Shown: one piece after another, positions 23,481-39,331 of the stretch
Layout: each line of letters starts with the position of its first letter
Numbering within the stretch: position 1 is the stretch's first letter
Assembly (NCBI GenBank): GCA_016937295.1
Contig: JAFGWF010000178.1
Location: forward strand, 1 to 39,969
Direction of reading: 5' to 3'
Length of the DNA stretch: 39,969 nt
DNA from: Bacteroidales bacterium
GTDB taxonomy: Bacteria > Bacteroidota > Bacteroidia > Bacteroidales > UBA1556
Program-made: the position numbers and the translations under genes
The notes under the pieces: model-generated
The model's input: the letters and a program-made list of their open reading frames with translations, nothing else
Databases searched by the model: none
What the model was told of the DNA's origin: nothing

Positions 23481-24923
23481 TCACTTTATCCATAGGATGG
23501 AATTATAACTGTCGAACTCGTTTTTTTCATAGTTTTGATTTGCAGGGTCGTGAATCCATTGCCCGTCTATAATGAATCGGTAGCTTGTTTTTCCCGGAGG
23601 AAGAAATAAATCGAGTTTCCAGCCGGTTTTGGTTTTTTCCATCTGATATCCGTGTTGAATCCAATTGTTAAAACTACCGGTAACAATTACGGATTTAGCA
23701 TTGGTATAAGATTCTAAAACAAAGGTGTAATTCGGTTTAAATGTGAAAAAAGAATTAATAAAATCACCGCTTCCATTTTGCAAAGGATTGTTGGGATCGG
23801 GCATCCATTTTCCATCCACAACGTATTTATATTCATAGTTTCCAGGGGCAAAATAATATGGGGTAACCCAACCTGAATCGGTTTTCAACATCGACAATTC
23901 ATCTCCTTTCCAATTGTTGAACGATCCGGCAAGAAAAACATTCTTAGCGGCGCTGTATCCTTTAAGAACAAAATAATAAGGTTCTCCAATGGCAAAAACC
24001 GAGTTGCCGGTGCCGAACTCATTTTGCTCAACATGGGAATTGTCGGGGTCTAAAATCCATTCACCGTCAACGATATACTTGTAATAATGTTTCCCGACAC
24101 CAATGTAAGCCGGAAGTGCCCAGCCGGTTTCAGTTTTAAGCATTTCTGCATCCGTTTCGTTCCAATTATTGAAACTTCCAACTAAAACCACTCGCTCCGC
24201 ATCGTTGAAACCGGGGAGATTGAACACATAATTAACCACATAGTAAACCGAATTTTCTCCTCCGTGTCCATCCGGCTCGGTGTTGAGATTTTCAGGATCG
24301 GAAATCCATTGCCCATCTACGATAAACTTGTAATAGTATTTACCTTCGGACAATTCTACCTCAGTTTCCCAGTAGCCGTCCGATTTCTTCATCTGTGTGG
24401 AAGAAGTGCTCCAGTCGTTGAAAGAGCCTGAAAGTAGCACAAATTCTGCATCTTGATGGCCATAAAGTCGAAATTGTATCCGATTATTTTTGTAGAATAC
24501 GGTTTTTGTTCTAAACTTATTTACTCCAAAGTTGACCGGTCCATTAACATATCCCGGACGGTTTGAGCCGGATTTTTCAATGGAATTGGTGAGGATTTTA
24601 AGAAAAATTGACGAGAAAAAAGAGTTCTTTTGTACCGACTTGTAAAGTAGCAAATAATTATGGTCGAGGGTTTTAGCCTCCCATTTTTCCCCATCAATCT
24701 CAAAACTTCTTTGGCCGGAAAAAAGTGCAGCAATCATTGCACTATCCAATTCAAATTGTGCAATCAATTCTTGCTTCTGATTTTCAGTCCATCGAAGGTC
24801 GATAGTGAAACTGAGTTGGCCATTTTCCACTTTGCACACGCCATCGGGAAGTGGCTGTGAATCAACACTAAAGCTGTTGAATAAAATGAAAAAAACTAAG
24901 GATACTTGAAAAATTGCTTTCAT
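23481..24923 (-). CDS. Exported protein with four tandem CBM48/isoamylase-N-like domains
   Basis: A 480-residue secreted protein with no catalytic domain visible. A signal peptide (about 1-22, ...FNSFSVDSQ) leads into a roughly 120-residue region (LPDGVCKVENGQLSFTIDLR...) and then four CBM48/E-set domains of about 82 residues (147-229, 232-312, 316-395, 399-479). Each has GSFN(N/D)W near its start, a GxW turn, then (Y/S)(K/R)(F/Y)(I/V)(V/I)DG(Q/E/K)W and DPxN. The same signature binds glycogen in AMPK-beta and isoamylase-type enzymes, so binding of alpha-glucan or another carbohydrate is likely. The DNA repeat spans about 24485-23487. The ATG overlaps the stop of the upstream retropepsin-like gene (ATGA) with a strong Shine-Dalgarno site, so the two proteins are made together. 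Confidence 0.85.
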   Translation of the reverse strand: MKAIFQVSLVFFILFNSFSVDSQPLPDGVCKVENGQLSFTIDLRWTENQKQELIAQFELDSAMIAALFSGQRSFEIDGEKWEAKTLDHNYLLLYKSVQKNSFFSSIFLKILTNSIEKSGSNRPGYVNGPVNFGVNKFRTKTVFYKNNRIQFRLYGHQDAEFVLLSGSFNDWSTSSTQMKKSDGYWETEVELSEGKYYYKFIVDGQWISDPENLNTEPDGHGGENSVYYVVNYVFNLPGFNDAERVVLVGSFNNWNETDAEMLKTETGWALPAYIGVGKHYYKYIVDGEWILDPDNSHVEQNEFGTGNSVFAIGEPYYFVLKGYSAAKNVFLAGSFNNWKGDELSMLKTDSGWVTPYYFAPGNYEYKYVVDGKWMPDPNNPLQNGSGDFINSFFTFKPNYTFVLESYTNAKSVIVTGSFNNWIQHGYQMEKTKTGWKLDLFLPPGKTSYRFIIDGQWIHDPANQNYEKNEFDSYNSILWIK

Positions 24924-25939
24924 ATTTTTTCCTCCTTATATTTTGAAATACATAATGTTTTCCTGTTGATGTTTATTTTGATAATGCCTTGGTTCAGAAA
25001 ATCGAAACCAAGCATTCCTCCGATATTAATGCCATATCCGCTACTCATTGTGGATAAATTGGTAATGATAACATTCATGCTGTCCATGCTTTGCTCGCCA
25101 ATTTTCAATTCGTTGAGCGAAGCGAAAAATACCTCCACCTTTTTGTTCCCTGAGCCGGTTAGCGTTTTTCTTCCCTTAATTTGCAAAAGTTGCATCAATT
25201 CATCCGGTGCTTGGTTGTCAATCAGGCAGTTTTCGGCTCCCGTGTCGATGCAAAAACAAACTTTTTTGCCCCCGATTGGAATATGGGTGATAATCACATT
25301 ATTTATGAGATCAATTTTTTGCTCTATTTCGTAATGATTGGTATCCCGAAATTCCACTAAAAGATTTCCCTTTCGATCTACCGGACAAAGAGTTAAGGAT
25401 GAGTTGCGAATATCTAAAATCATTTCAAAATCTTTAAAAAAAGAACTTCCAAGAAGCCCTAAAATCTTAATTCCTTTAGAGTTTTCGATATGCCCCAGAT
25501 TTATCACGTCAGCATTTAACTTTTTAAAAACTAATGTGTTGAATTTTATACTGTCCACCACCTTTTTTTTTCTTTCAATATTTGATTGATTAACGCCCAC
25601 TCCCGCCGCATCAAAAACCGGTTTGCCATCTCGAAAATAGGTTGAGTTGAGCACTAAACCTCCGGCGCCGGTATCTAAGATGAAATTACCTGAAATTGAG
25701 TCAATTGTGGCTTCAATCAATAGCAGATTTCCAGCTCTTTTCAAGGGAATCACTACCATTGAGTTGGGAATAATTTTTTTTCGGGAAGATGGTTGAAGAT
25801 GAAAGTCTTCAGTGTTTTCATCATTCTGAAAATAAGTGTTTTGTGATGTTTTTTCTACGAAAGAATCCATTGGTTCCGGTTTGGAATAAGCCAAAAGGAA
25901 AGCAAAAATTAAAAGTAGTAAAGAAAAATTCTTATTCAC
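24920..25939 (-). CDS. Exported clan-AA aspartic protease-like protein with two DTG motifs
   Basis: A 339-residue protein (using GTG at 25939) with a signal anchor (residues about 2-20, KNFSLLLLIFAFLLAYS). Two retropepsin-like units follow, each with an aspartic-protease DTG: D89 in NFILDTGAGGLVLN and D232 in VCFCIDTGAENCLID. Each unit is followed by the hydrophobic-Gly flap pattern (GLLGSSFFKDFEMILD; GGMLGFDFLNQGIIKI). A two-DTG chain could form an intramolecular active site like pepsin, although classical retropepsins dimerise. GTG is preferred because a -7 element ends at 25970, so transcription would begin downstream of the TTG at 25972. The CBM48 gene overlaps its stop. The pair looks like a secreted protease plus a glycan-binding partner, which is inference. 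Confidence 0.8.
   Translation of the reverse strand: MNKNFSLLLLIFAFLLAYSKPEPMDSFVEKTSQNTYFQNDENTEDFHLQPSSRKKIIPNSMVVIPLKRAGNLLLIEATIDSISGNFILDTGAGGLVLNSTYFRDGKPVFDAAGVGVNQSNIERKKKVVDSIKFNTLVFKKLNADVINLGHIENSKGIKILGLLGSSFFKDFEMILDIRNSSLTLCPVDRKGNLLVEFRDTNHYEIEQKIDLINNVIITHIPIGGKKVCFCIDTGAENCLIDNQAPDELMQLLQIKGRKTLTGSGNKKVEVFFASLNELKIGEQSMDSMNVIITNLSTMSSGYGINIGGMLGFDFLNQGIIKININRKTLCISKYKEEKI
24931..24937 (-). promoter_or_regulatory. Strong Shine-Dalgarno site for the CBM48 gene
   Basis: The minus strand reads AAGGAGG, 7 bases before the ATG at 24923, an unusually good match for a lineage where Shine-Dalgarno sites are usually weak. It lies inside the last codons of the retropepsin-like gene, whose stop overlaps the ATG. 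Confidence 0.55.
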
Positions 25940-25969
25940 TGATTTTCGATTTCGGGAAATTGCATGGGG

Positions 25970-25977
25970 CAAAATTA
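25970..25977 (-). promoter_or_regulatory. Candidate -7 element for the retropepsin/CBM48 operon
   Basis: The minus strand reads TAATTTTG followed by C, an exact TAnnTTTG match. Transcription would start near 25963, downstream of the TTG at 25972, which excludes TTG as the start. A 9-codon out-of-frame ORF (ATG at 25966) would be the first translated element. Confidence 0.4.
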
Positions 25978-26280: not shown

Positions 26281-28203
26281 ATGCGACTTCTAATTTTGTT
26301 CAGTTTCGTTTTTCTTTTAAACCAATCTTTTGTTTTTGCGCAAAACATTATGCTGGATAGTTTGATTACTGCTGCCGACAAGATTGAAAATGTTGACGAT
26401 AAGATATTGTATTTCAAGAAGATGTCGGAAGACACTTCCTATTCCGACATTGCCTTGGAATTGTTACAGGAGGCGAAAACCTATTCAACGGCCTATCGTT
26501 TACCAATTGACTTGAAATTGTATGAGGAATTAGGTCGGCGCTACACCGATAATTTTATGTTTGAACAGGCCATAAATATCTACGATACGCTTGCGAATTT
26601 TCATTTTCGACAGAAGGACACTTCAGGTTGGGTAAAAAGCTTAGATGCTTTGTCTCGCAATTACTTACGAGCTGGTATTCAGGATAGTGCACTGGAAAGT
26701 TTGCTGAAAGCTGAAACGATAATTGACAAAACAAATAATAAAATGTTGCAGTTTCGGATTCATTATGGAATTGCTCACTTCTATTTAGTTACATCTAATC
26801 CGCGTAATTTGCCGCATGAATACCTTGATGTGTGTCGAAATATTGCAGATGAATTGGATTCGGATAGCCTACGCTTTGACTATTTTCTTGAAAAGGCCAG
26901 ACTATATGTTTTTACTGCGATTTATGACTCCGCCGAGTATTTCTTTGAAAAAGTTGGCGATTTGGTCAATTCTTCGGGAGATTTCGGAAAATTGGATCAG
27001 TATTATAATAGCTTAGCGATTTATTATCAGTCGCTTGAAAAACACGATTTAGCTCTTGATGCCTATCTTAAGAGTTATCGAATCAATTTGGATAAGGATA
27101 ATTTCGTAGGACTTTATGTGAATTGTTATAATATTTTTACTTTTTACAATGCGCGAGGCGACTTGGAAAATGCGGAAAAATATCTGATTAAAAGTCTTAA
27201 ATATGCCGAAATTACTAAGATTCAACAGTATAAAATTGCAACATATCAGCAGTTGCATCTTTTTTATTCATCGAATAAAAACTTTGAAAAGGCGTATGAA
27301 TATTTACTGTTGATGAATCAGTCGGTGGAAAGCATGCACTTTCGTGAATTGACAGCCCGAATAGCAGATTTGACCATTCGCTACGACGTGCTGAAGTCGC
27401 AAGATGAGATTACGTTTTTAACGCAAGAAAATCAGATTCAATCGTTGAAAATCAGAAATGATAAGCTAATTATCTATGGATTAGTGATTTTAATGATTGG
27501 AATTGCGCTCTATTTTATTTTGATTTGGCGTCAGAATAAAATCAAAACCAAACAAAAAACCGATCAGTTGACTTTGAAAAACCTGATGCAACAGATGAAT
27601 CCACATTTTATTTTCAACACGCTCAACTCCATTCAGTATTACATGTACAATCATAGTGAGTTAGATACGAACGACTATATTTCAAAGTTTGCATCACTGA
27701 TTCGCAGGATTTTAGACAATTCAAATCAAAATGGCGTGAAACTTTCCGATGAGTTGGAAACGGTCGGACTCTACATTCAATTGGAAAAAATTCGTTTCGA
27801 TGATGGCTTCGACTATCAAATCTCTATCGACCCTGAAGTTAACCCCGATGAGTTTAAAATTCCTTCCATGTTTATTCAGCCATTTGTCGAAAATGCAATC
27901 ATTCATGGTTTAAGACACCGAAAAGAAAGGGGGCAACTTAGTTTAGAGATTAAATTGCAAAAGAATGATATTGTGGAAATTACTGTAGAGGATAATGGCG
28001 TAGGACGCAATAAATCGGACCACATCAATTCGCAAACCGGTCATAAACACAATTCAAAAGCCCTTGGAATTGCCAAAGATCGCCTGAAATTGCTAAGCTC
28101 AATTTATAATAAAAAGCTTAATATTCAATATATTGACAAAACCGAATCGGATATTTGTTGTGGAACAAAAGTTATAATCGAGTTGCCGTTAATCAAAAAT
28201 TAA
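26281..28203 (+). CDS. LytS-type sensor histidine kinase with N-terminal TPR sensor
   Basis: A 640-residue membrane histidine kinase. A signal sequence (about 1-20, ...QSFVFAQ) is followed by about 370 residues of TPR-like helical pairs (for example YYNSLAIYYQSLEKHDLALD; YNARGDLENAEKYLIK) that are presumably periplasmic. Then come one membrane helix (about 396-416), a short linker, and a His_kinase (PF06580)/HATPase_c module. The phospho-acceptor is H442 in QQMNPHFIFNTLNS, the N box is QPFVENAIIHGL (N538), and the G box is EDNGVG (571-575). It is the LytS-like class that works with LytTR regulators, and that partner begins 12 bases after this stop. The signal sensed is unknown; the TPR region may bind a protein or peptide. 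Confidence 0.93.
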   Translation: MRLLILFSFVFLLNQSFVFAQNIMLDSLITAADKIENVDDKILYFKKMSEDTSYSDIALELLQEAKTYSTAYRLPIDLKLYEELGRRYTDNFMFEQAINIYDTLANFHFRQKDTSGWVKSLDALSRNYLRAGIQDSALESLLKAETIIDKTNNKMLQFRIHYGIAHFYLVTSNPRNLPHEYLDVCRNIADELDSDSLRFDYFLEKARLYVFTAIYDSAEYFFEKVGDLVNSSGDFGKLDQYYNSLAIYYQSLEKHDLALDAYLKSYRINLDKDNFVGLYVNCYNIFTFYNARGDLENAEKYLIKSLKYAEITKIQQYKIATYQQLHLFYSSNKNFEKAYEYLLLMNQSVESMHFRELTARIADLTIRYDVLKSQDEITFLTQENQIQSLKIRNDKLIIYGLVILMIGIALYFILIWRQNKIKTKQKTDQLTLKNLMQQMNPHFIFNTLNSIQYYMYNHSELDTNDYISKFASLIRRILDNSNQNGVKLSDELETVGLYIQLEKIRFDDGFDYQISIDPEVNPDEFKIPSMFIQPFVENAIIHGLRHRKERGQLSLEIKLQKNDIVEITVEDNGVGRNKSDHINSQTGHKHNSKALGIAKDRLKLLSSIYNKKLNIQYIDKTESDICCGTKVIIELPLIKN

Positions 28204-28214
28204 TTAATTCAGAT

Positions 28215-28976
28215 ATGATTAAATCCATCATTGTTGACGACGAGCCAAATGCGGTAAATTTTCTGGCGAATGCTCTCACAAAGTATTGTCAGGATGTGGA
28301 AATTGTGGGCAAGGCGCATTCCGTGGAAGATGCTCTTCCGCTTCTTTTTAATGCTAATTTCGACTTGCTTTTTTTAGATATTGAGCTCTTGGACGGCACC
28401 GGTTTCGACTTGTTAGAGCGTGTTGGAAAGATAAATTTCTCGGTTATTTTTATAACGGCCTATAATCAGTATGCTATCAGGGCGTTTCGATTCAATGCTT
28501 TAGATTATTTGCTAAAACCGGTGAATATCAAGGAGTTGTTGAATGCTGTGGATAAAGTTAGAATTCGTTTAAACGCTTCACAACAACATTTTATCGACTT
28601 CAAAAAACTTTTCGATAACCTCAAAGCGCCACAACCTACCAAATTGGCAATAAACTCTCAATCCGAAACAGTGTTCATTTCTTTGGACGAAATAGTGCGT
28701 TTAGAAGCCTATGGAAATTATACTCGAGTGATATTAGTGGATGGAAATCAGATAATTGCATCAAAAACTCTCAAGGACTATGAAACGCTGCTTGAGAATC
28801 TAAGCTTCTTTCGAGTTCATCATTCTCATATAATTAATTTGCAATTCATCAAAAAATTTATAAGGCGTGACGGGGCTTCGGTGCTGATGCAGGATGGGTT
28901 GAACATTCCCGTTGCCACCCGCCGCAAGGAAGCTTTTGAACAATATTTAAAAGATTTTTTCAACCAGATGGATTGA
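28215..28976 (+). CDS. LytTR-family response regulator
   Basis: A 253-residue two-component regulator. The receiver domain (about 1-120) has the acidic pair in VDDEP (D8, D9), phospho-acceptor D55 in LLFLDIELLDGTGFD, T81 in FITAYNQ, and K101 in YLLKPVN. The C-terminal LytTR DNA-binding domain (about 145-250) shows the typical FISLDEIVRLEAYGNYT and SFFRVHHSHIINLQFIKKF. LytTR proteins bind imperfect direct repeats upstream of targets. The ATG at 28215 is chosen over upstream in-frame codons because it begins directly with the receiver strand MIKSIIVDDEP. It is the likely partner of the kinase just upstream. Confidence 0.95.
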   Translation: MIKSIIVDDEPNAVNFLANALTKYCQDVEIVGKAHSVEDALPLLFNANFDLLFLDIELLDGTGFDLLERVGKINFSVIFITAYNQYAIRAFRFNALDYLLKPVNIKELLNAVDKVRIRLNASQQHFIDFKKLFDNLKAPQPTKLAINSQSETVFISLDEIVRLEAYGNYTRVILVDGNQIIASKTLKDYETLLENLSFFRVHHSHIINLQFIKKFIRRDGASVLMQDGLNIPVATRRKEAFEQYLKDFFNQMD

Positions 28977-29021: not shown

Positions 29022-30632
29022 CTAATTCATCAATTTGCTTAGCATATTGATTCCTACTTCGGATTCGTAAACCACTGCTAAACAGCTATCTCCTTTAGTT
29101 TTTTTGAAAGTTTCCGGAAATAATATGGCTAATTTTCCCGTATTTGTTATAAACCATCCCACATTCTGCTGATTTCCACTGTACAAATAGTATTGCTGAT
29201 AGGGATTGGGTTGAGCATAAATCCAGCTCACATTTGCATCCGGTTGGCAAACATATATCTCATTCGTTATTAGTTTTTTATGATTCTGATCATAGGTTCT
29301 CAATGCGCCTCGCCGTGCCATCTGTGGCTGTGGTACCGGAAAATCGCAATTGAAAGTGCCTAAACGTGTTACTTGAATATTTCTTACCATGCTGAATTTG
29401 GTAGTTTTCTCTTGCAAATTTTTCTGCATTTTTTTTCGATTTTCACGTTCTTGTTTTCTAATTTCCTGAACCTTCTTTTCCTCATTAAAAGCCATTATTG
29501 CTTTTTTATATTTCAAAGGGTTTATTATCGGCTTTACTTTAAACGCTGAGGTAGTACTGCCTTTCTGTAAAATTAAGGTCAAATTTGTATCTTCCTGTGC
29601 TAATTCAACCCGATCCCACCTGACATGGTAATAATTCGGCTTAAATTTCTCCTTTGAATCTATTTCCAACATTAAGCTGTCAAGGGCATAGTATTCTGTA
29701 TTTTTATACATTTCGGGAATTGCTGAGAAAACATAGCTCTCTGGTTCTTTGACCTCCATCTTTCTTTGACCTACGAAACTTCTTATAAGTTGATTTTGAG
29801 TATAATCCGTTTGAGGATGCAAGGTTATATCGGTAGTGTCTATTTGAATTTCATCTTGTGAAAAACTATAGGAGTAGTCTTCCATTGCTTGATTTTGCGT
29901 TAGCGGCAGCAAGTTTTCTTCCTCTTCACGGTATAAATATACCCATTGGTTTGAAATAGTATCATATTCGTAGAAATTATAAACTTCTTCTTTTTCTGAA
30001 ACGAGACTGATGTCGATGGCTTTGCCTTCTTTCATATATAGTTGATTTCCATTAGATTGAGCGTCAATCTGAAACATTCCGGCTGACATAAAACTATAGT
30101 TTATTCCTGCCGAATCGTAATCCATAGGAATTCCTGCCAGATAAATGTCGAAGGGATTATAAAAATCGCGGTAGTAGATTTCAATGTCCTTATTCACTTC
30201 ATTCCCATCTTTGTCAATGAAAGTATTGGCTGGAATATGAATGATGCTTCCGTTTTTTGTTTTGATGTCGTGAGCCTTCTTGTTATTTATTTTAAAAATC
30301 TCATAGTCGATTCTTTCCCCAAAGGGTGGCTCAATTTTCCGACTTTTGTTGTCCTGAGCGTAAAATTTGGTGCTGTCTTCAACTGTTGTAATCTGTTCTA
30401 TATCCGCTTTTTGAGTTTCGGGCTGATGCGTTGTTAGCAAGTATGTGGCAATCGTTGCCACCGCTACCACAGCTAAACCGGTGATTCCATAGCTTAGAAA
30501 GGATTTTCCTCCGGCAGTGAAATGGCTATTGTTTACCATGTTTGTTAAGCTCGAAAATGGTTTTTTAAAGCGTAATATTTCATTATCAGTAATTGGTTTT
30601 CTGTCGGTTATAAGTGTTCTTTTCGGTTTCAT
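29022..30632 (-). CDS. Single-pass membrane protein downstream of the sigma factor (anti-sigma-like, unrecognised)
   Basis: A 536-residue protein with a basic, probably cytoplasmic N-terminus (about 1-46), one membrane helix (about 47-67, YGITGLAVVAVATIATYLL) and a large, probably periplasmic part. The periplasmic part contains a beta-rich segment around IIHIPANTFIDKDGNEVNKD and a Lys/Glu-rich coiled-coil stretch (about 390-420, EEKKVQEIRKQERENRKK). This N-in, single-helix plan and its place directly after an ECF sigma gene resemble anti-sigma factors, but no known anti-sigma domain was recognised. The ATG at 30632 is used rather than TTG at 30641. The IPANTF-type segment recurs in Bacteroidota surface proteins. 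Function is unknown; the anti-sigma idea is inference. Confidence 0.65.
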   Translation of the reverse strand: MKPKRTLITDRKPITDNEILRFKKPFSSLTNMVNNSHFTAGGKSFLSYGITGLAVVAVATIATYLLTTHQPETQKADIEQITTVEDSTKFYAQDNKSRKIEPPFGERIDYEIFKINNKKAHDIKTKNGSIIHIPANTFIDKDGNEVNKDIEIYYRDFYNPFDIYLAGIPMDYDSAGINYSFMSAGMFQIDAQSNGNQLYMKEGKAIDISLVSEKEEVYNFYEYDTISNQWVYLYREEEENLLPLTQNQAMEDYSYSFSQDEIQIDTTDITLHPQTDYTQNQLIRSFVGQRKMEVKEPESYVFSAIPEMYKNTEYYALDSLMLEIDSKEKFKPNYYHVRWDRVELAQEDTNLTLILQKGSTTSAFKVKPIINPLKYKKAIMAFNEEKKVQEIRKQERENRKKMQKNLQEKTTKFSMVRNIQVTRLGTFNCDFPVPQPQMARRGALRTYDQNHKKLITNEIYVCQPDANVSWIYAQPNPYQQYYLYSGNQQNVGWFITNTGKLAILFPETFKKTKGDSCLAVVYESEVGINMLSKLMN

Positions 30633-30643
30633 TTTCTTCAATA

Positions 30644-31261
30644 TTAAAAGGCAATTAATAAAATAGTTAATGCTAAAAGTATTTCGAGTCCGCGTGATTT
30701 GCTGATTGTAATCATTTGAGTGCCAATTTTTTTGCGAATTCTGAAAAGGGCAGTTCTAAGACTTTCTTCAGTTTTTCCGGTGATGGATGCTATGTCGGTA
30801 AAAGAAAGACGGTCGAAATATTTCCATTGAATAAGTTCATATTCCTGATCGGGAAGCTGTTCCATGCACTCGATAAGCAAAGCCATCATATCATCGCTAA
30901 AGTTCTCTTCCTGACTCCATTGCTTGATTTTTTCCATTTCTACATAGTACTTCGTTTGAACTTTTTGTTTCCTGAAATGTAATAAAACTTCATTATTGGC
31001 AATAGTGAAAATCCATGATTTTAATGCTCCGCTATGCCTCGAAGTGAACTTGTCGGCATTTTTTAAGGCTTTCAGAAATGTGGTGCTAACAAGGTCTGCG
31101 GCAGTCTCTTTGTCGTCAACTCGACTATAGACAAACCTGAAAATCTCGATGTAATGTCGGTCGTAGATCTCGCCGATTTCCGCTTCGATGCTTTTCTTCC
31201 GATTTAGGATTATTCCCGAATCTTCAACTTCGTTTTGGGTGAACAGTGCATTCATTTTCAT
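30644..31261 (-). CDS. ECF-type RNA polymerase sigma factor with hydrophobic C-terminal tail
   Basis: A 205-residue sigma-70 family factor of extracytoplasmic-function type. Region 2 (about 28-100) includes EIYDRHYIEIFRFVYSR and AADLVSTTFLKALKNA. Region 4 (about 115-185) contains LPDQEYELIQWKYFDRLSF and the helix-turn-helix FTDIASITGKTEESLRTALF. Unusually, the protein then ends ITISKSRGLEILLALTILLIAF, a hydrophobic tail of about 13 residues that could touch or insert in the membrane. It precedes the single-pass membrane protein gene by 11 bases and follows the LRR protein by about 37 bases. ECF factors answer envelope stress or surface signals; the target promoters are not known. Confidence 0.9.
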   Translation of the reverse strand: MKMNALFTQNEVEDSGIILNRKKSIEAEIGEIYDRHYIEIFRFVYSRVDDKETAADLVSTTFLKALKNADKFTSRHSGALKSWIFTIANNEVLLHFRKQKVQTKYYVEMEKIKQWSQEENFSDDMMALLIECMEQLPDQEYELIQWKYFDRLSFTDIASITGKTEESLRTALFRIRKKIGTQMITISKSRGLEILLALTILLIAF

Positions 31262-31298
31262 TGTATTATATATCTATAATTCCCATTTAAGGATTTTG

Positions 31299-33329
31299 TT
31301 ACAGATTTAAATAGTTTATTATTTGTCCTATGGTAATTAAATCATAATTAGTTACTTGTGCTTTTAAGGTGATTACTTTTTCTTTGTCATTCGCTGTTGA
31401 AACTTCTTTCTGATTAACCAATCCATAAGAATTGTCGGGTAATATAATGATCATTGAAATTTCCTCATCTTTCACCAAACTAAGGCTTATGGCTTGTATG
31501 GTTGGTGAAAATTGATATTTTCGGTAGCTCAGTCCTTTATGGTATATCACAAAGATTTCTTTGACAGGAATATTGGAGCCGGTTTCATTTATAAAAATTA
31601 TGTCTTTTAGTTCAATATTTGCGGTGTCGTTTATATTCGATAATCTGTTGTATCCTAATATTTTAAGACTTCGAAGCCAGTATGTTTCGGAAGGATAGCA
31701 GGATTCTAAGGCTTCTGCTTCATGGCTTAGAATTTCAACATAATAATCCATCCATTTTTCTTCAGTCAGCAGCCGCTCCTCCGGACTCATTAAACTACGA
31801 AGCTGCTGCCAGCCATTCCGCTCAATTTGAAGGATAGCATTCCGAATCAACCGTTTGTTTTTTGTGATTTCCTTATCACTTTTTCGATTTTTGCGCGCTA
31901 ATAAAGAAAGATATTTTGCATAATCTTTCTCCAAATCCTTGGGGCTTATATTCTCGGCTTTGCCAAATCTCCTTCTAACAGGAAAAGCTTCTATGGTTTT
32001 AATTTTTCCTGACGGCTCTTTCAGAAAAATGGTAAAATTCTTCATTTGTGGATGATATAAAAGCCTGATGTCCATATAGTCAACTTTTAAAAATGGCATG
32101 AATTCCTTCGGTTTTGTGGGATTATAAGTAACCCATTCATAATCTTTATATATGGTTAATTCTTGATGAGCTTTAAAAAATTTAGCCGATGAATAGTTTC
32201 GATTTTTTCTGTTTTTGCGAGGGTAAAAATTGAATGTCAGATGACCTCGCTGAACTCCTCGATAGCGGAATAGTTTGAAGAAAGCGTTGCTGGAATTTAG
32301 TAGGCGCGATGGAACTATTAGTGAGTCCCAAAATCTTTCTTCGGTAAAAAGAGTGTCGAATGTTATTGATAGCAATCGATTGCTAAATATTTGATTATAA
32401 TGCATGTACGCTGCTGAGTAAACCTTATAACTTTGGTTGTTAGTGTTGAAATTTCCATAATGATTCATCCTGATTTTCGCTTCTGGAGTGATGGGTGCAA
32501 AATCCCAAAAGATTCGACTATTAATCTGTTTTAAAGTGGTTATGATGGCCGGTGAAACGGAATCGGTACGAATGTATTTCAAGTTACGGCTCGCGCAGAA
32601 TTCCAGCTCGTATTCGGGGTCGGGTAAATTATTACCTTCTATAAATAGACTGTCTAATTTTGGAAAAAAAGGTAGGAAGGTGGTTAAACTTGCCAATTTA
32701 TTATGACTCAAATTTAATACCTTGATATTATGTGATTTATAATCTGTATTCACATTATAAATCCCACAATTAATAACCGAAAGTTTCAATAAGTCATTCT
32801 CCAAAGTAAGTAATTTGTTTAGGCTGTTTGGGTCAATTGTGCGACAGTTTTCCAAATAAAATTCCTTAACATGATGTTCTAAGAGGAAGTTTGTTGGCAC
32901 CATGCTGATTTGGCTGTTTTTAATAACCACCTTGCTGATGAAATCTGTGTTTTTAAATGCTTCCATGAGCGATAAAAAATCAACTTCTGATACAGATTCT
33001 ATTTCTAATGTGCCAATTTCGTGTGCTCTCAATTTTGGTAATCCCGAAATGTTGGTTTTGGCTGCCGAACTGCCTATGAATGCTATGTTTGTTAAAAATA
33101 TTGCTTTTGATGCTTGGGTGAAGGCGGCGCTTGCGTATTCATTCTCAAAATCAATCACTATTCGACTTGGTAAATTGTTGTTTTCTAAAGCTTTGGTTTT
33201 GCCCTGAGAAAAAGAATGGTATTGTGTGAACAACAGAAAGATTATCAATAGATTAGGTGTGAATTGAATTTTACGCCAGAGGGAAAAACTGCGGCTATTG
33301 ACACATTTATAATCTTTTTGATTAAGCAT
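31299..33329 (-). CDS. Exported leucine-rich-repeat protein, unknown function
   Basis: A 676-residue exported protein. A basic N-terminus leads to a hydrophobic signal stretch (about 24-42, FTPNLLIIFLLFTQYHSFSQ). Residues about 90-270 carry leucine-rich repeats (RAHEIGTLEIESVSEVD, HNIKVLNLSHNKLASLTTF, FPKLDSLFIEGNNL), indicating a protein-binding solenoid. The remaining roughly 400 residues have no recognised domain. They are rich in charged and aromatic residues and include a Lys/Arg-rich segment (LSLLARKNRKSDKEITKNKR). It lies upstream of the sigma factor with about 37 bases between, so all three genes may form one transcript. It is not similar to its neighbours. LRR function could be adhesion or binding a signal; this is unproven. 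Confidence 0.75.
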   Translation of the reverse strand: MLNQKDYKCVNSRSFSLWRKIQFTPNLLIIFLLFTQYHSFSQGKTKALENNNLPSRIVIDFENEYASAAFTQASKAIFLTNIAFIGSSAAKTNISGLPKLRAHEIGTLEIESVSEVDFLSLMEAFKNTDFISKVVIKNSQISMVPTNFLLEHHVKEFYLENCRTIDPNSLNKLLTLENDLLKLSVINCGIYNVNTDYKSHNIKVLNLSHNKLASLTTFLPFFPKLDSLFIEGNNLPDPEYELEFCASRNLKYIRTDSVSPAIITTLKQINSRIFWDFAPITPEAKIRMNHYGNFNTNNQSYKVYSAAYMHYNQIFSNRLLSITFDTLFTEERFWDSLIVPSRLLNSSNAFFKLFRYRGVQRGHLTFNFYPRKNRKNRNYSSAKFFKAHQELTIYKDYEWVTYNPTKPKEFMPFLKVDYMDIRLLYHPQMKNFTIFLKEPSGKIKTIEAFPVRRRFGKAENISPKDLEKDYAKYLSLLARKNRKSDKEITKNKRLIRNAILQIERNGWQQLRSLMSPEERLLTEEKWMDYYVEILSHEAEALESCYPSETYWLRSLKILGYNRLSNINDTANIELKDIIFINETGSNIPVKEIFVIYHKGLSYRKYQFSPTIQAISLSLVKDEEISMIIILPDNSYGLVNQKEVSTANDKEKVITLKAQVTNYDLITIGQIINYLNL

Positions 33330-33877: not shown

Positions 33878-35176
33878 TCATTCCACCATTTTTCCTGTAA
33901 TCCGCCGAACATCCATTTCAGTTTGCCGAAGTTGATTCATTAGGTTGATAAGCTGCATATTTATTTGAATTACAGAAAGTTGATTCTGTCGAAAGTCGAA
34001 CCCGCTAATGGTTCCTGCGTTATACTGCTCTTCCGCAATTTCGATTGTTTTTGTAGCCCATTGAAGGTTTTTTTCCAAAAGATTTTTATTTAATAGCAAA
34101 TTGTGATAAATGCTTAATAATCGATGAAGCTCCGTCTTGATTAAATTTTCGTAATCTATCCTGCTCAAAGTAGCAATTTCGGTTTCTAATTGGCTGTTTT
34201 CTATGCGATTATTCACTTTGCCACCATCGTATAAATTCATTCGAACCGTTACGCCAAAACCTGGTCCATAAGTCAATGAAGACTCGGTAAAGCCAACTTC
34301 GTTCATCTGCTTGGAGTATCCGTAGCTTCCAAAAAGATTGACTTGTGGATAACGTGCTGATTCTTCAATACGTAAATTAGCTTCGGCCAACAATTCTTCC
34401 ATTTGCCTGCGTTGCAGGTAGTTGTTATTGGCTATGGCGTCTTTTTGAATGGCTTCCTCATTTCCAATACCCTGTAATTCCATGCTTTCTTTTACAGGAG
34501 TCCATTTCGTAATACTGTCGTTTCGCAGCATCCTGTTGATTTGAATTTGTAGGTCTTCAACAGCCCATTTGGCATTTAAAAGAGCTATCGAGTCCGAATT
34601 GAAATCCATTTCTGCTTGATATAATTCCAAGGCGTTAATGGAACCTATTTCTTTCTGTTTCAATGCAATTCTATACCGAAATCGAGAAATGTCTAAGCTT
34701 TGTTGATGTAGCTCCACTATGTCGTGGCTCATTATTAATTGGGAATATAATCTTGAAATGTCGGCAATAGTTTGTTCTACCAAGTATTTTGTTTCTTGAG
34801 CGCCAATCTGTGCCAAATAGTTTAAACGGTCTTTATTGGCAAACATGGCAAATCCGTCAAATACTGTATAATCTAATCGAACCGCACCCGACAAAGTAGT
34901 GCTTTGAGCGTTTTTTCCACTGCGACTATCACCGCTAAAAAAATTTAACTCGGAGTTTTTAACGTCCATGGATGCGGTGCCGTCAGCAGATATTGTTGGC
35001 AACATGCCGGCATTTCCGGCAGTGTTTTGGTTGTCGAGTATTTGGTTCTCAATTCGGTAAATTTGAATCTGATAATTCTTCTCCAACGTCATGGAAATCA
35101 TCTCATTAAGTGTTATTGTTTGTTGACTGTAAGCACTTATGGAAACAAAAAGAAATAGTATGGATAGTTTATTCAT
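33878..35176 (-). CDS. TolC-family outer-membrane efflux channel
   Basis: A 432-residue outer-membrane component of the RND system upstream. A signal peptide (MNKLSILFLFVSISAYSQQ) precedes a TolC domain rich in long helices, with the family's duplicated pattern (ITLNEMISMTLEKNYQIQIY near the start; LSQAG-like helical repeats later) and the typical EEQYNAGTISGFDFRQNQLS near the C-terminus. The start is the ATG at 35176; the apparent upstream M is TTG at 35185. It overlaps the end of the RND gene by 8 bases, so the three genes form one operon. It would form the channel that carries drugs or other compounds across the outer membrane. Confidence 0.9.
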   Translation of the reverse strand: MNKLSILFLFVSISAYSQQTITLNEMISMTLEKNYQIQIYRIENQILDNQNTAGNAGMLPTISADGTASMDVKNSELNFFSGDSRSGKNAQSTTLSGAVRLDYTVFDGFAMFANKDRLNYLAQIGAQETKYLVEQTIADISRLYSQLIMSHDIVELHQQSLDISRFRYRIALKQKEIGSINALELYQAEMDFNSDSIALLNAKWAVEDLQIQINRMLRNDSITKWTPVKESMELQGIGNEEAIQKDAIANNNYLQRRQMEELLAEANLRIEESARYPQVNLFGSYGYSKQMNEVGFTESSLTYGPGFGVTVRMNLYDGGKVNNRIENSQLETEIATLSRIDYENLIKTELHRLLSIYHNLLLNKNLLEKNLQWATKTIEIAEEQYNAGTISGFDFRQNQLSVIQINMQLINLMNQLRQTEMDVRRITGKMVE

Positions 35177-38100
35177 GTTCTTCAACAGTTTTTTTAGTTT
35201 TTTTACTTGCTATGAACGTGTAAAGCACCGGAATAACAAACAGGGTCAGGAATAGGGAGAAAAGCAATCCGCCGATAATCACCGTTCCGAGAGGCACTCG
35301 ACTATTTGCAGAGCCGCCAAGGGATAAAACCAAAGGGATAGCTCCCAAAACGGTAGCCATGGAAGTCATAAGGATGGGGCGAAGTCGGTCGGTTGCGGCG
35401 CTAATTGCTGCCTGGCGTAGATTCATTCCTTCAGCTCTTTTTTGATTTGCAAAGTCAACGATGAGAATGCCGTTTTTAGTAACAATTCCAATAAGCACAA
35501 TCATACCGATTTGACTGAATATGTTTAAGGTTTGTCCAAAAATCCAAAGAGAAAGGAGGGCGCCGGCAAGAGCTAGAGGCACGGTAAGCATCACAGTCAA
35601 AGGGTCGCGGAAACTCTCAAACTGGGCTGCAAGGGTGAGATATACCAAAATAAGGGCGAAGACAAAAACCAAAAGCAGGTTGGAATTCCCTTCGGCATAA
35701 TCAGCCGAGTTTCCGGTAAGTGTTGTCAAAAAACTGTCGTCCAACACTTCATCAGCAATTTTATCCATGGCGTCAATACCATCGCCAAGGGTGTAACCGG
35801 CTGCCGGTGAGGCTGATATGGTTGCTGATGAGTAACGGTCGTAGCGTAAAAGCTGTGGAGGCATGCTTTGTTCACGAATCGTAATCAGGTTATCCAAACT
35901 TACCAAATTCCCGTCTTTAGTGGTCATTTTAATTTGTTTGATGTCCTCAGGGCGCATTCGCTGACTATTTTCGGCCCTGGCTATCACATAATATTGCTTT
36001 CCATTTCTAATAAAAAAGCCAATTCGTTGCTCGCTAAAATAGGTCTGCATGGTTTCAGCAATGTCTTTTACGGAAATGCCCAAATCGAAAGCTCTATCGC
36101 GATTGATATCAATGGCTAACTCCGGCTTAGTGAATTTTAAGTCAATATCAACCGCTTCAAATGCGGGATGACTTCGCGCTTTATCCAAAAATTTAGGAAT
36201 TACTTCTTCTAATTGTTCCAAAGTTCCGGTTTGAATCACATATTGAATCGGTAAGGAATTCATGCCTCCTCCGGCTCCTTCAATAGTTGGGTCTTGCACC
36301 ACAAATGCTTGTCCCATAGTGTGTTTTTGCAATTGCTTATTAATCTCAGCCGCAATTTCCATTTGGGATTTTTCCCGTTTATTGGGTTCTTTCAGCATTA
36401 TTCTGAAAAAACCGGAATTGACCGAAACGGACGAACCAAATCCGGGTGAAGTAACCGAAAGAACATAGTCTTTTTCAGGAATAGTATCCAAAAAGGAAAG
36501 TAATTCAAGCTGAAATTCATCCATAAGTTTAAAGCTTGTGCCTTCAGGTGCTTTGGTAATCACGCGCAATCTGCCTTTATCATCCAACGGAGCCAATTCT
36601 TTAGGAAGGTTGATGAAAAGAAATCCAATCATCAAAAAGGAAATTATGAGGATGGGGAAGGATAAATATTGGTACTTGAAAAATCCGGTAAGCCATGAGG
36701 GATAGTGTTTTAGCAGAAAATCAATGGGTTTTTGGATAAAACGAAGCGACCGATATTCTTTTGTGCCGGGTTTTAACAATCTCGAACTTATCATCACTGT
36801 GAGCGAAAGAGAGATAAATGTGGAAATTATCACAGAGCCCGACACGACCATCGCAAACTCTCTGAAGAGTCGTCCTGTGAATCCCATCATGAAGAAAATG
36901 GGCATGAAAACAGCTATCAAAGTAACTGTGGTTGAAATGATTGCGAAAAAAACCTGTCGTGAACCTTTAAATGCAGCTTGGATGGGATTCATGCCTTGCT
37001 CAATTTTAGCATAGATGTTTTCCATCATCACTATGGCATCGTCCACAACCAAACCGGTGGCAAGGAGCAAACCAAGCAGGGTGAGTACATTTATGGAAAA
37101 TCCGGCGATGAATAGAAAAATAAAGCCGCCAATGAGACTAATTGGGATTGTGATAACCGGAATGAAAGTGGTGCGGAAATTTCGCAGAAAGATGAAAATG
37201 ATGAATAAAACTAAGGCGAATGCGAGTATTATGGTGCTTTGAACGTCTGAGATAGACTTGCGAATGCTGGTAGTCACATCCATCCCGACACCTATGATAA
37301 TGTCGTCAGGAATTTCCTTTTTAAGCTTTTCCACACGGCGGTAGGCTTCATCCACAATGTCGATATAGTTGCTGCCGGGTTGGGGCTGTAAAGCCACACC
37401 AACCATGGGAATAGCGCCATTTCCCCGAAGAATCGATTGGTCGTTTTGGGCTCCCAACTCCGCCCTTCCTAAATCCTTTAACCTTATGATGTGGTTGTTT
37501 CGCTGCTTGATAACCAAATTGTTAAACTCGTCAACGGTGTTTATTCTTCCGTAAGTTTGAATGGTGAGATAGCGCCTTTCACCTTCAAGTTGTCCTGCCG
37601 GAAGTTCAACATTCTGACTGTTCAGGGCTTGTTTGATGTCTTGAGTAGTTATCTGATAACTGTTCATTTTGTTGATGTCAAGTATCAAACGCATAGCGTA
37701 CTGTTTACTTCCCCAAATATAAATTTGGCTTACGCCATCAATAGTTTGCAATCGTTCTTCAAAAACATTTTCGGCAATTTCGGTAAGTTCCATAAGACTT
37801 CGATTGCGGCTTTGCAGAGTGATGGCAAGGATGGTTTGAGCATCGGCATTCGCTTTGGAAACAACCGGTGGGTCGGCATCCGGCGGAAGGACTCGAAGCG
37901 CCTGCGAAACCATATCGCGTACGTCATTGGCTGCATTGTCCAAATCTTTGCCAAGGTCAAATTCAACACTAATTGTTGAACGGCCAACGGAGCTCACCGA
38001 ACTGATATTCTTAATTCCATCCACACGATTTATCTGCTCCTCAAGTGGTTCAGTTATCTGCGATTCAATCACTTGCGCACTGGCACCGGTATAGTCGGTT

Positions 38101-38243
38101 CTCACGGTGATGATGGGTGGATCAACGCTGGGATATTCTCTAACGCCAAGGGTTAGAAAAGCAACTGTTCCAAATATCACAATCGCTATAGCAAAAACCA
38201 AGGTCAAAACCGGCTTTTTTATGCTTAATTCCGATAAGGTCAT
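35169..38243 (-). CDS. RND efflux pump, HAE1/AcrB-type inner-membrane transporter
   Basis: A 1024-residue proton-driven pump with the usual 12-helix, duplicated AcrB plan. The proton-relay aspartates D401 and D402 sit in GLLLATGLVVDDAIVMMENI (helix 4). The N-terminal periplasmic entry (SVDPPIITVRTDYTGASAQV) and the second-half VLIGIVTKNGILIVDFA are diagnostic. Its full length (AcrB is 1049 residues) suggests that it is functional. By family it exports toxic compounds such as drugs, dyes or bile salts; the substrate is unknown. Its start overlaps the adaptor gene's stop by 4 bases and its end overlaps tolC. Confidence 0.96.
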   Translation of the reverse strand: MTLSELSIKKPVLTLVFAIAIVIFGTVAFLTLGVREYPSVDPPIITVRTDYTGASAQVIESQITEPLEEQINRVDGIKNISSVSSVGRSTISVEFDLGKDLDNAANDVRDMVSQALRVLPPDADPPVVSKANADAQTILAITLQSRNRSLMELTEIAENVFEERLQTIDGVSQIYIWGSKQYAMRLILDINKMNSYQITTQDIKQALNSQNVELPAGQLEGERRYLTIQTYGRINTVDEFNNLVIKQRNNHIIRLKDLGRAELGAQNDQSILRGNGAIPMVGVALQPQPGSNYIDIVDEAYRRVEKLKKEIPDDIIIGVGMDVTTSIRKSISDVQSTIILAFALVLFIIFIFLRNFRTTFIPVITIPISLIGGFIFLFIAGFSINVLTLLGLLLATGLVVDDAIVMMENIYAKIEQGMNPIQAAFKGSRQVFFAIISTTVTLIAVFMPIFFMMGFTGRLFREFAMVVSGSVIISTFISLSLTVMISSRLLKPGTKEYRSLRFIQKPIDFLLKHYPSWLTGFFKYQYLSFPILIISFLMIGFLFINLPKELAPLDDKGRLRVITKAPEGTSFKLMDEFQLELLSFLDTIPEKDYVLSVTSPGFGSSVSVNSGFFRIMLKEPNKREKSQMEIAAEINKQLQKHTMGQAFVVQDPTIEGAGGGMNSLPIQYVIQTGTLEQLEEVIPKFLDKARSHPAFEAVDIDLKFTKPELAIDINRDRAFDLGISVKDIAETMQTYFSEQRIGFFIRNGKQYYVIARAENSQRMRPEDIKQIKMTTKDGNLVSLDNLITIREQSMPPQLLRYDRYSSATISASPAAGYTLGDGIDAMDKIADEVLDDSFLTTLTGNSADYAEGNSNLLLVFVFALILVYLTLAAQFESFRDPLTVMLTVPLALAGALLSLWIFGQTLNIFSQIGMIVLIGIVTKNGILIVDFANQKRAEGMNLRQAAISAATDRLRPILMTSMATVLGAIPLVLSLGGSANSRVPLGTVIIGGLLFSLFLTLFVIPVLYTFIASKKTKKTVEEHE

Positions 38244-39331
38244 AGTTGAGCCTCCGTTCTGATTTGGTTGATGGTGATTGGTGCTTTGTCTTTGATTTTC
38301 ATTAAGTTGCTGATGATTACGGTGTCTCCGGCTGAAAGGCCTGAAAGAATTTGAACCATCGATTTAGTTCGTCCGCCGGTTGTAACCGGCTTTGATTGAA
38401 CCTTTCCGCTTTTTACAATATAAATAATCTGACCATTGAGCTGCGGCACAATGGCGTCTGCAGGTACTAATAAGGCATCATTGGACGTTTGAAGGTTATA
38501 CACCACTTGAACAAAGTCTCCTACAACAAACTTTTTTTCTTTATTGTCGATTTTTGCCCGAAGCTGAATACTGCCCGAAGTAGCATCAATAGAGGAGTTG
38601 ATGGCATAGATTTCAGCCTCAGCACTGTCGGAGCTTGTGGTTGCAATAAAACGAATTTTTTGACCAACGGACGCTTTGGCAGCATAAGCTCCCGGTATTT
38701 CAAATTGAATCTTTAAACGGTCATCTTGAACTAAAGTGCTGATTGCTTGTCCGGTATTCAACCATGTGCCAACACTAATATCTCGCATTCCGATTTTTCC
38801 GCTAAATGGTGCCTGGATTGATGCAAGGTCAATTTTTACTTCCAATTCCTCCATTTGTGCTTCCAATTGTAAAACTTTTGCCTTAGCCAAATCTATGGCT
38901 TCTGTGCTAACACCCTCTACGTCAACGAGCTGACTCTTTCTTTTTAAATCATTTTCTGCTGTTAGCAATTGCGATTTCAACGCTTTTAATTGCGATTGAA
39001 AATGTCGGTCGTCAATTTGGATTAGCTTTTCGCTTTGTTGAACATGTTGCCCTTCCTTAAAATTTATCTCCGTTACTAAACCTGATAGGGGGGCTGTTAC
39101 ATACAATTCTTCCATAGCTAAAATTTTTCCCGGTACAATAATCTCAGAAGTAAATGTTTGACCTTGAGCTATATATCCAATGGCTTGCAAATTGCCTGAA
39201 AAATTGCGTTTGGATTCGGTTTTTTCTTTGCACGAATTTAAAGTAAAAACAAGGCAACAGGTTAATCCTAAAACAGGCAATTTTTTTAATAAATTTCTTG
39301 ATTTCAGGAAAGGTATTGTTTTATTTGTCAT
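38240..39331 (-). CDS. RND efflux periplasmic adaptor (HlyD/MFP) lipoprotein
   Basis: A 363-residue membrane fusion protein that links the inner-membrane pump to TolC. A signal sequence ends LNSC (C34), so it is probably a lipoprotein anchored in the inner membrane. It shows the biotinyl-lipoyl motif halves (LSGLVTEINFKEGQHVQQSE and IQAPFSGKIGMRDISVGTWL), a helical hairpin between (about 110-165), and a beta-barrel region (DRLKIQFEIPGAYAAKASVG). Length and domain order match AcrA/MexE-like adaptors. It is the first gene of the adaptor-pump-TolC operon, with a promoter candidate at 39425-39432. No TetR- or AraC-type regulator is adjacent in the window. Confidence 0.94.
   Translation of the reverse strand: MTNKTIPFLKSRNLLKKLPVLGLTCCLVFTLNSCKEKTESKRNFSGNLQAIGYIAQGQTFTSEIIVPGKILAMEELYVTAPLSGLVTEINFKEGQHVQQSEKLIQIDDRHFQSQLKALKSQLLTAENDLKRKSQLVDVEGVSTEAIDLAKAKVLQLEAQMEELEVKIDLASIQAPFSGKIGMRDISVGTWLNTGQAISTLVQDDRLKIQFEIPGAYAAKASVGQKIRFIATTSSDSAEAEIYAINSSIDATSGSIQLRAKIDNKEKKFVVGDFVQVVYNLQTSNDALLVPADAIVPQLNGQIIYIVKSGKVQSKPVTTGGRTKSMVQILSGLSAGDTVIISNLMKIKDKAPITINQIRTEAQL

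Follow-up and report, generated by a model that had tools for sequence, protein, structure and literature searches.

The stretch of DNA analyzed in this work (hereafter "the window") consists of the 39,969 nucleotides of contig JAFGWF010000178.1 from the Bacteroidales bacterium assembly GCA_016937295.1; the nearest named relative is the metagenome-assembled genome (MAG) Bacteroidales bacterium UBA6267. On its minus strand, from position 33329 down to 29022, three genes lie head to tail and code for an exported leucine-rich repeat (LRR) protein, an extracytoplasmic function (ECF) sigma factor and a single-pass membrane protein. The three open reading frames (ORFs) confirmed the same-strand arrangement and the gaps originally reported, i.e., 37 bases between the LRR and sigma genes and 11 bases between the sigma and membrane-protein genes; an alternative TTG start of the latter gene (30641) would reduce the second gap to only 2 bases. 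The three genes form one conserved unit, which we think probably operates as a sigma/anti-sigma switch in envelope sensing, assisted by an exported co-sensor. Its features, all on the minus strand, are the following:

31299..33329, minus: exported LRR protein, first gene (676 amino acids; ORF)
32457..33179, minus: LRR solenoid, residues 51-291 of the LRR protein (AlphaFold2 model; VIA-align Z 17.1 to ribonuclease inhibitor)
31302..32165, minus: C-terminal domain of the LRR protein, residues about 389-676, homologous to that of the membrane protein (hhalign)
30644..31261, minus: ECF sigma factor, second gene (205 amino acids; Pfam and NCBIfam matches)
30647..30703, minus: hydrophobic C-terminal tail of the sigma factor, residues 187-205 (hydropathy window; sigma alignment)
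29022..30632, minus: single-pass membrane protein, predicted anti-sigma factor, third gene (536 amino acids from the ATG)
30495..30632, minus: predicted cytosolic N-terminus of the membrane protein, residues 1-46, bearing the motif (alignment; AlphaFold2 model)
30429..30494, minus: predicted transmembrane helix, residues 47-68 (model, hydropathy and flanking charge)
29913..30308, minus: predicted ZU5/GAIN-like periplasmic domain of the membrane protein, residues about 109-240 (VIA-align Z 9.2 to ankyrin ZU5)
29025..29702, minus: C-terminal periplasmic domain of the membrane protein, residues about 311-536 (model; common to the LRR protein)

Conservation of the three-gene unit

The original prediction had proposed that the three genes might act together, an idea that depended on their being neighbours also in other Bacteroidota. 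This is indeed the case, since the same order and strand recur in seven further genomes (eight in all, spanning at least six families), including, outside the genus, the Bacteroidales genomes G272, G328, G313 and G095 and a Flavobacteriales MAG (L054). Among these cassettes the identity of the LRR protein to that of the window drops to 21-23%, and the spacing ranges from 37 to 96 bases between the LRR and sigma genes and from -4 to 37 bases between the sigma and membrane-protein genes; in G272 the latter gene is truncated by the contig end. Within the genus, the LRR protein and the form of the membrane protein possessing the N-terminus are confined to the same three genomes (of 11) that harbor strong sigma orthologues; the other eight are devoid of the three genes, with the exception of G006, which carries a relative of the membrane protein without the N-terminus. 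The comparison of the window with the cassette of G005 revealed purifying constraint on all three genes, with ratios of non-synonymous to synonymous changes (pN/pS) of 0.34, 0.21 and 0.23 and synonymous sites near saturation.

The analysis of a tree of 41 pairs, constructed using the sigma factor and the membrane protein and leaving out the LRR protein, showed that the eight LRR-family cassettes fall on one side of a single branch (SH-aLRT 98), and that the LRR-cassette label requires 1 change on this tree versus 7.5 for shuffled labels. This implies that the LRR gene has long been kept with its pair, either after one gain or before one loss. The frequency of the cassettes among all pairs is a biased estimate, since they were found partly via searches with the LRR protein and partly via searches with the membrane protein. 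No promoter motif common to four cassettes was found upstream of their LRR genes; in this position, a block of about 80 bases is common to the window and G005. In G154, a relative of the LRR protein consisting of the C-terminal domain only (L146, 7872-9110) ends about 330 bases before the contig end, and a sigma/membrane-protein pair (L230, 242-2485) begins about 240 bases into another contig; these are perhaps the two parts of one cassette split by the assembly.

The sigma factor and its probable membrane partner

The second gene codes for an ECF (group 4) sigma-70 factor, a short protein embedding regions 2 and 4 (Sigma70_r2, E 1.9e-14; Sigma70_r4_2, E 8.9e-10, both above the gathering score; TIGR02937 above its cut-off). 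The protein ends with SKSRG followed by about 15 hydrophobic residues. Using a 15-residue tail window with a mean hydropathy of 1.5 or more, such a tail was found in six of 73 distinct sigma ORFs (window, G005, G002, G272, G154 and G196), with a length of about 15-27 residues; in G154 and G196, which are near relatives, the contig breaks off on the upstream side. The tail is conserved between the window and G005 (pN/pS 0.32) and is missing in the related cassettes of G095, G328, G313 and L054, and thus it is not essential to the unit. A short hydrophobic stretch also lies near the end of another sigma factor (L228), so that milder versions may be commoner. Sigma factors with larger membrane-bound extensions are known (ECF48, ECF52, ECF53 and IutY, according to PMC8999054); here the tail is bare and accompanied by a separate anti-sigma candidate, which suggests an extra anchoring at the membrane.

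The membrane protein was described in the original prediction as having the topology of an anti-sigma factor and no recognised anti-sigma domain, and both statements are borne out by our data. Hydropathy, charge and the AlphaFold2 model, in which one helix (residues 47-68) spans the membrane, predict a cytosolic N-terminus and a periplasmic C-terminus; the side of the helix facing the N-terminus is the more positive one in 37 of 41 members, whose cytosolic part comprises 36-54 residues (46 in the window). Pfam gives no match to the protein below E 0.1 and NCBIfam gives none at all, and no anti-sigma family appears among those listed from Pfam and NCBIfam for 57 relatives. Its first 46 residues carry the motif K[IF]Nx[DN]RPx[IL][ST]xEEIxxxx[DN]Fxx[LV][LV]xx[FY], which no Pfam or NCBIfam model covers and whose Phe26 is present in all of the 41 aligned pairs. 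In the survey PMC7406223, a limit of 50 residues is given for class I anti-sigma domains; the cytosolic end of the window protein is thus too short for a domain of this kind, none of which is recognisable in it, and in length resembles class II (CnrY). Class I comprises the RseA, zinc-finger and FecR types, whereas in class II factors (CnrY, NepR) a short stretch of cytosolic helices is wrapped around the sigma factor.

The motif and the sigma gene are associated with each other. Relatives bearing the motif have a sigma gene directly upstream in 42 of 43 cases, the remaining one (L059) beginning at a contig end, and the two genes overlap or are at most 40 bases apart in 37 of the 41 pairs measured. 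Among the relatives with a complete start and without the motif, which are mostly exported or lipoprotein-like, only one of 42 (L034) has an upstream sigma gene. These counts derive from 93 rows, reduced to 89 by dropping four genome repeats (L021, L022, L024 and L026); 41 rows were scored as motif-bearing and two (L057 and L084) were added by eye, the sigma gene of L069 was also identified by eye, and four fragments or contig-cut starts (L050, L104 and two pieces of L080) were left out of the 46 motif-less rows. The 43 motif-bearing relatives include near-copies (L051/L055/L080, L052/L053 and L095/L096). These sequence data make it very probable that the sigma factor has its anti-sigma partner in the membrane protein.

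The same ectodomain was also found behind a different N-terminus of about 80 residues, matching no Pfam family, in three proteins with a divergent sigma gene directly upstream (L034, 8978-10950; L234, 6121-8702; L235, 5420-7589). Hence, two types of cytosolic end are combined with this ectodomain, and a sigma gene adjoins in both cases.

As for the periplasmic part, the model of the membrane protein consists of beta-sandwich-type domains and a long helix, with no barrel (as judged from secondary structure and fold matches), and contains a confident domain at residues about 100-240. VIA-align superimposed it on the ankyrin ZU5 domain (Z 9.2, 123 residues, root-mean-square deviation 3.1), and nearly all the rows with a Z of 5 or more were ZU5, GAIN or FIIND domains. 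The outer part of the protein is therefore predicted to have a ZU5/GAIN-like fold; this assignment holds at the fold level only, since Foldseek by itself yielded nothing significant for the membrane protein (lowest E 0.076) and the match rests on VIA-align. Apart from the membrane helix, this domain (residues 98-245) is the most constrained of the stretches compared between the window and G005 (pN/pS 0.12). Self-cleavage was considered and rejected: the motif His-x-Ser/Thr or Cys-x-His known from active ZU5/GAIN domains is absent from the end of the domain, and no conserved His or Cys occurs at positions 205-246 in 57 relatives. Active ankyrin-type ZU5 domains also exist without cleavage.

The LRR protein, other exported partners and the genomic neighbourhood

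The LRR protein of the window gives weak Pfam matches below the gathering score (the best being LRR_4, E 0.0012); residues 51-291 of its model form an LRR solenoid, and Pfam LRR matches above gathering were obtained for the orthologues L144, L145 and L054. The NCBIfam matches of orthologues to XopAC, XopL, XopAE and similar models, which lie far below the model cut-offs, reflect LRR similarity and were discarded as indications of function. The members of the family possess a hydrophobic N-terminal segment, with no lipobox in any of the eight proteins and no match to a type IX secretion system sorting domain (NCBIfam) in the five of the eight that were scanned. The lack of an anchor or sorting signal makes a periplasmic location likelier than a surface one, and the LRR protein probably stays in the periplasm. 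The idea of a surface-sensing module, as originally put forward, is thus unsupported, the sensor part of the partner protein also being predicted to be periplasmic.

The C-terminal domains of the LRR protein and of the membrane protein are homologous (hhalign probability 99.3, E 2.7e-20, score 137); in the controls, 30 column shuffles scored no higher than 18 and the reversed profile reached 15.9. Neither set included a fused protein, and the homology was seen only with alignments of 69 and 8 rows; the profile comparison of a four-row with a three-row alignment (A1 versus A2) found nothing. The LRR protein of G328 is also matched directly by the membrane-protein profile (E 9.2e-7). Moreover, one exported protein joins LRRs and a ZU5-like domain, mostly together with a recognisable C-terminal domain, in L030, L148, L149, L152 and L035; only the LRR and ZU5-like parts are matched in L152, and in L035 the ZU5-like and C-terminal parts rest on profile matches and on the reading of the translation. 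LRR matches are weak in L092 and absent from L083. The common C-terminal domain and the LRR/ZU5-like fusions found elsewhere suggest that the LRR protein is likely a co-sensor of the switch, probably working with the anti-sigma ectodomain and docking on it by means of the shared domain. The sigma tail, the common C-terminal domain and the fusions are features additional to those of the original prediction.

The LRR protein is not the only partner found. All six of the large neighbours of motif-less relatives that were scanned are WG-repeat proteins (in the loci L025, L027, L089, L090, L103 and L104), which represent a second repeat-protein partnership of the ZU5-like module. In four pairs lacking an LRR gene, a small exported TonB_C protein is encoded upstream of the sigma gene:

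L024, 4423-4938: TonB_C gene upstream of the sigma gene
L052, 4664-5083: TonB_C gene upstream of the sigma gene
L228, 2786-3241: TonB_C gene upstream of the sigma gene
L229, 5547-6170: TonB_C gene upstream of the sigma gene

Similar small exported proteins, unmatched by the TonB_C profile, occupy the same slot in L056 and L227. Overall, of 45 sigma loci whose slot (within 250 bases, same strand) was examined, eight have an LRR-family gene there, four a TonB_C gene and eight some other ORF; in the remaining 25, including a few that start close to a contig end, the slot lacks any ORF of at least 70 codons. It seems that the exported partner of the system may vary or be missing.

Some relative of the membrane protein occurs in 83 of 393 Bacteroidales genomes. 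The motif-bearing form with an adjacent sigma gene is present in at least 12 of them (G000, G005, G036, G095, G154, G166, G196, G269, G272, G313, G328 and G337), a lower bound, since scoring was confined to three candidates per genome and only a portion of the matches was inspected. In a draw of 395 genomes from the phylum, 37 possess some relative, and only the genome of the window matches both ends of the profile.

Concerning the surroundings of the unit, an RND efflux operon (33878-39331; OEP protein, AcrB-type pump and a third gene) lies directly upstream on the same strand; the genes upstream of the G005 cassette differ from it. A TPR histidine kinase and a LytTR response regulator (26281-28976) are convergent with the cassette, an arrangement kept in G005 (L021, 10812-13508). 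Further away, an exported protein with repeated AMPK1_CBM/CBM48 domains (23481-25972) adjoins a retropepsin-like aspartyl protease, a pair also kept near the G005 cassette (as judged by protein length and start), and a glycoside hydrolase family 3 protein fused to a beta-lactamase-family domain is encoded at 10002-12971.

Proposed mechanism, alternatives and known systems

The conserved order, the co-inheritance, the association between motif and sigma gene, the common C-terminal domain and the LRR/ZU5-like fusions together support this reading of the unit as a sigma/anti-sigma switch of the envelope that relies on an exported co-sensor, which we consider somewhat better than an even proposition. 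According to this model, the membrane protein would hold the sigma factor off via its short cytosolic end, and the LRR protein would dock on it through the common C-terminal domain, the solenoid reading a ligand. The binding of the ligand might then alter the complex and free the sigma factor, either through a shift in conformation or because the anti-sigma factor undergoes proteolysis; in the lineage of the window, the tail could in addition hold the sigma factor at the membrane beside the anti-sigma helix. By analogy, the switch would work like a class II sigma/anti-sigma system with a separate periplasmic sensor, with no assignment to a named anti-sigma family. What stands of the original prediction is a conserved signalling unit whose anti-sigma-like partner has an unrecognised cytosolic domain; its location at the cell surface is unsupported.

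Several findings weigh against such a switch. The profile of the N-terminus matched no solved anti-sigma chain, with no CnrY or NepR row, and the short helices modelled in it (residues 16-21 and 26-34) are of low confidence (predicted local distance difference test about 47-65). The first gene of the G095 cassette (L147) codes for the C-terminal domain only, without LRRs. The unit is also patchy within the genus (three of 11 genomes), and no LRR gene accompanies 28 of the 36 tree pairs whose upstream sequence extends over at least 1,500 bases, which implies that the LRR protein belongs to one lineage. This last figure, together with the position of the LRR gene at the head of the unit, also fits a different idea, namely that sigma factor and membrane protein are a true sigma/anti-sigma pair and that the LRR protein is merely a target (effector) of the sigma factor rather than its input; autoregulated effector genes are indeed common beside ECF factors. 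Since the C-terminal domain shared with the anti-sigma factor and the LRR/ZU5-like fusions suggest a physical partnership, we regard this possibility as unlikely, though the most serious of the alternatives. The patchiness might even suggest that three unrelated genes are adjacent by chance, an explanation that is contradicted by an order kept in eight genomes and at least six families in spite of LRR-protein identities as low as 21-23%, as well as by co-inheritance, and that appears extremely improbable.

The sign of the regulation deserves a separate comment. The motif and adjacency evidence would be equal if the membrane protein were a positive partner of the sigma factor, i.e., an activator or a needed carrier, rather than its inhibitor, as in the case of the N-terminus of FecR for FecI, the 59 N-terminal residues of FecR being reported as essential for ECF activity (PMC7406223). 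Membrane-anchored anti-sigma factors are nevertheless by far the most frequent arrangement, accounting for 74% of the ECFs with known mechanism according to PMC8103513, and a positive role seems rather improbable to us. Still less probable is that the tail-bearing sigma factor itself is the membrane-bound part, freed by the cutting of its tail, with the membrane protein only helping. Membrane-bound extensions of sigma factors do exist (PMC8999054), and the tail occurs in part of the LRR-cassette lineage plus G154 and G196; against this, it is short and missing in the four related cassettes mentioned above.

Our literature search, which covered few subscription papers or preprints, found no published account of an LRR/sigma/membrane-protein unit, and the literature on membrane-anchored sigma factors yielded nothing relevant to it. 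In the survey PMC7406223, class I anti-sigma domains are given for about 6% of Bacteroidetes ECF factors versus 32% overall, and other anti-sigma classes are suggested for this group. The motif family represents a concrete and testable candidate for a class of this kind; by itself it is too rare to close the gap.

The genes of the CnrH/CnrY/CnrX system lie together. In this class II system of Cupriavidus metallidurans, as described in PMC4598750, a short cytosolic inhibitor end, one membrane helix and a separate periplasmic sensor recall the unit of the window. The sensor, however, is CnrX there and LRR/ZU5-like here, and the N-terminal profile gave no sequence match to any solved anti-sigma chain. 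The TonB receptor/FecR/FecI surface-signalling systems, including TfSigG/TfFecR, likewise have an ECF sigma gene with the gene of a single-pass membrane protein behind it, also in Bacteroidota (PMC13352502). They differ from the unit in that the latter has no FecR Pfam match, possesses an LRR partner and has no TonB receptor among its scanned neighbours. Dma proteins are, according to PMC13088901, unusual Bacteroidota-specific anti-sigma factors encoded beside their sigma factors. They end in an outer-membrane beta-barrel behind a disordered tether; such a barrel is absent from the model of the window protein, where a ZU5-like and a C-terminal domain are found instead. RseB is not known to be an LRR protein or to have a domain in common with RseA. 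The RseA/RseB pair of sigma E nonetheless shares with the unit the combination of an anti-sigma factor and a separate periplasmic partner (PMC8103513). ECF48, ECF52 and ECF53 also carry a hydrophobic element after sigma region 4, whereas the sigma factor described here has a bare tail of about 15-27 residues without a zinc-finger domain, together with a separate membrane protein.

The last comparison is with the animal sensors PIDD and NLRP1/CARD8, which combine LRR and ZU5-type domains in one sensor, PIDD carrying LRRs and ZU5 being described for CARD8 and NLRP1; the likeness of the ZU5-like domain to them is one of predicted fold (Z 6.7-9.2), and the self-cleavage motif is not conserved here. 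Should the LRR protein be a co-sensor, its role as the input of a sigma/anti-sigma pair would be unusual, and the combination of LRR and ZU5-like domains would connect envelope sensing in bacteria with domain sets known from immune sensors of animals. We can thus speculate, tentatively and with more doubt than confidence, that an unnamed Bacteroidota anti-sigma family exists, whose members combine a ZU5/GAIN-like ectodomain with a short inhibitory motif of a new type, and in which one lineage added an exported LRR co-receptor and a tail-anchored sigma factor; the result would be a pattern-sensing switch of bacteria built on LRR and ZU5-like parts, paralleling the LRR-ZU5 sensors of animal innate immunity by convergence or descent. 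The unit suggests a kind of envelope signalling module in uncultured Bacteroidota that has not been named so far.

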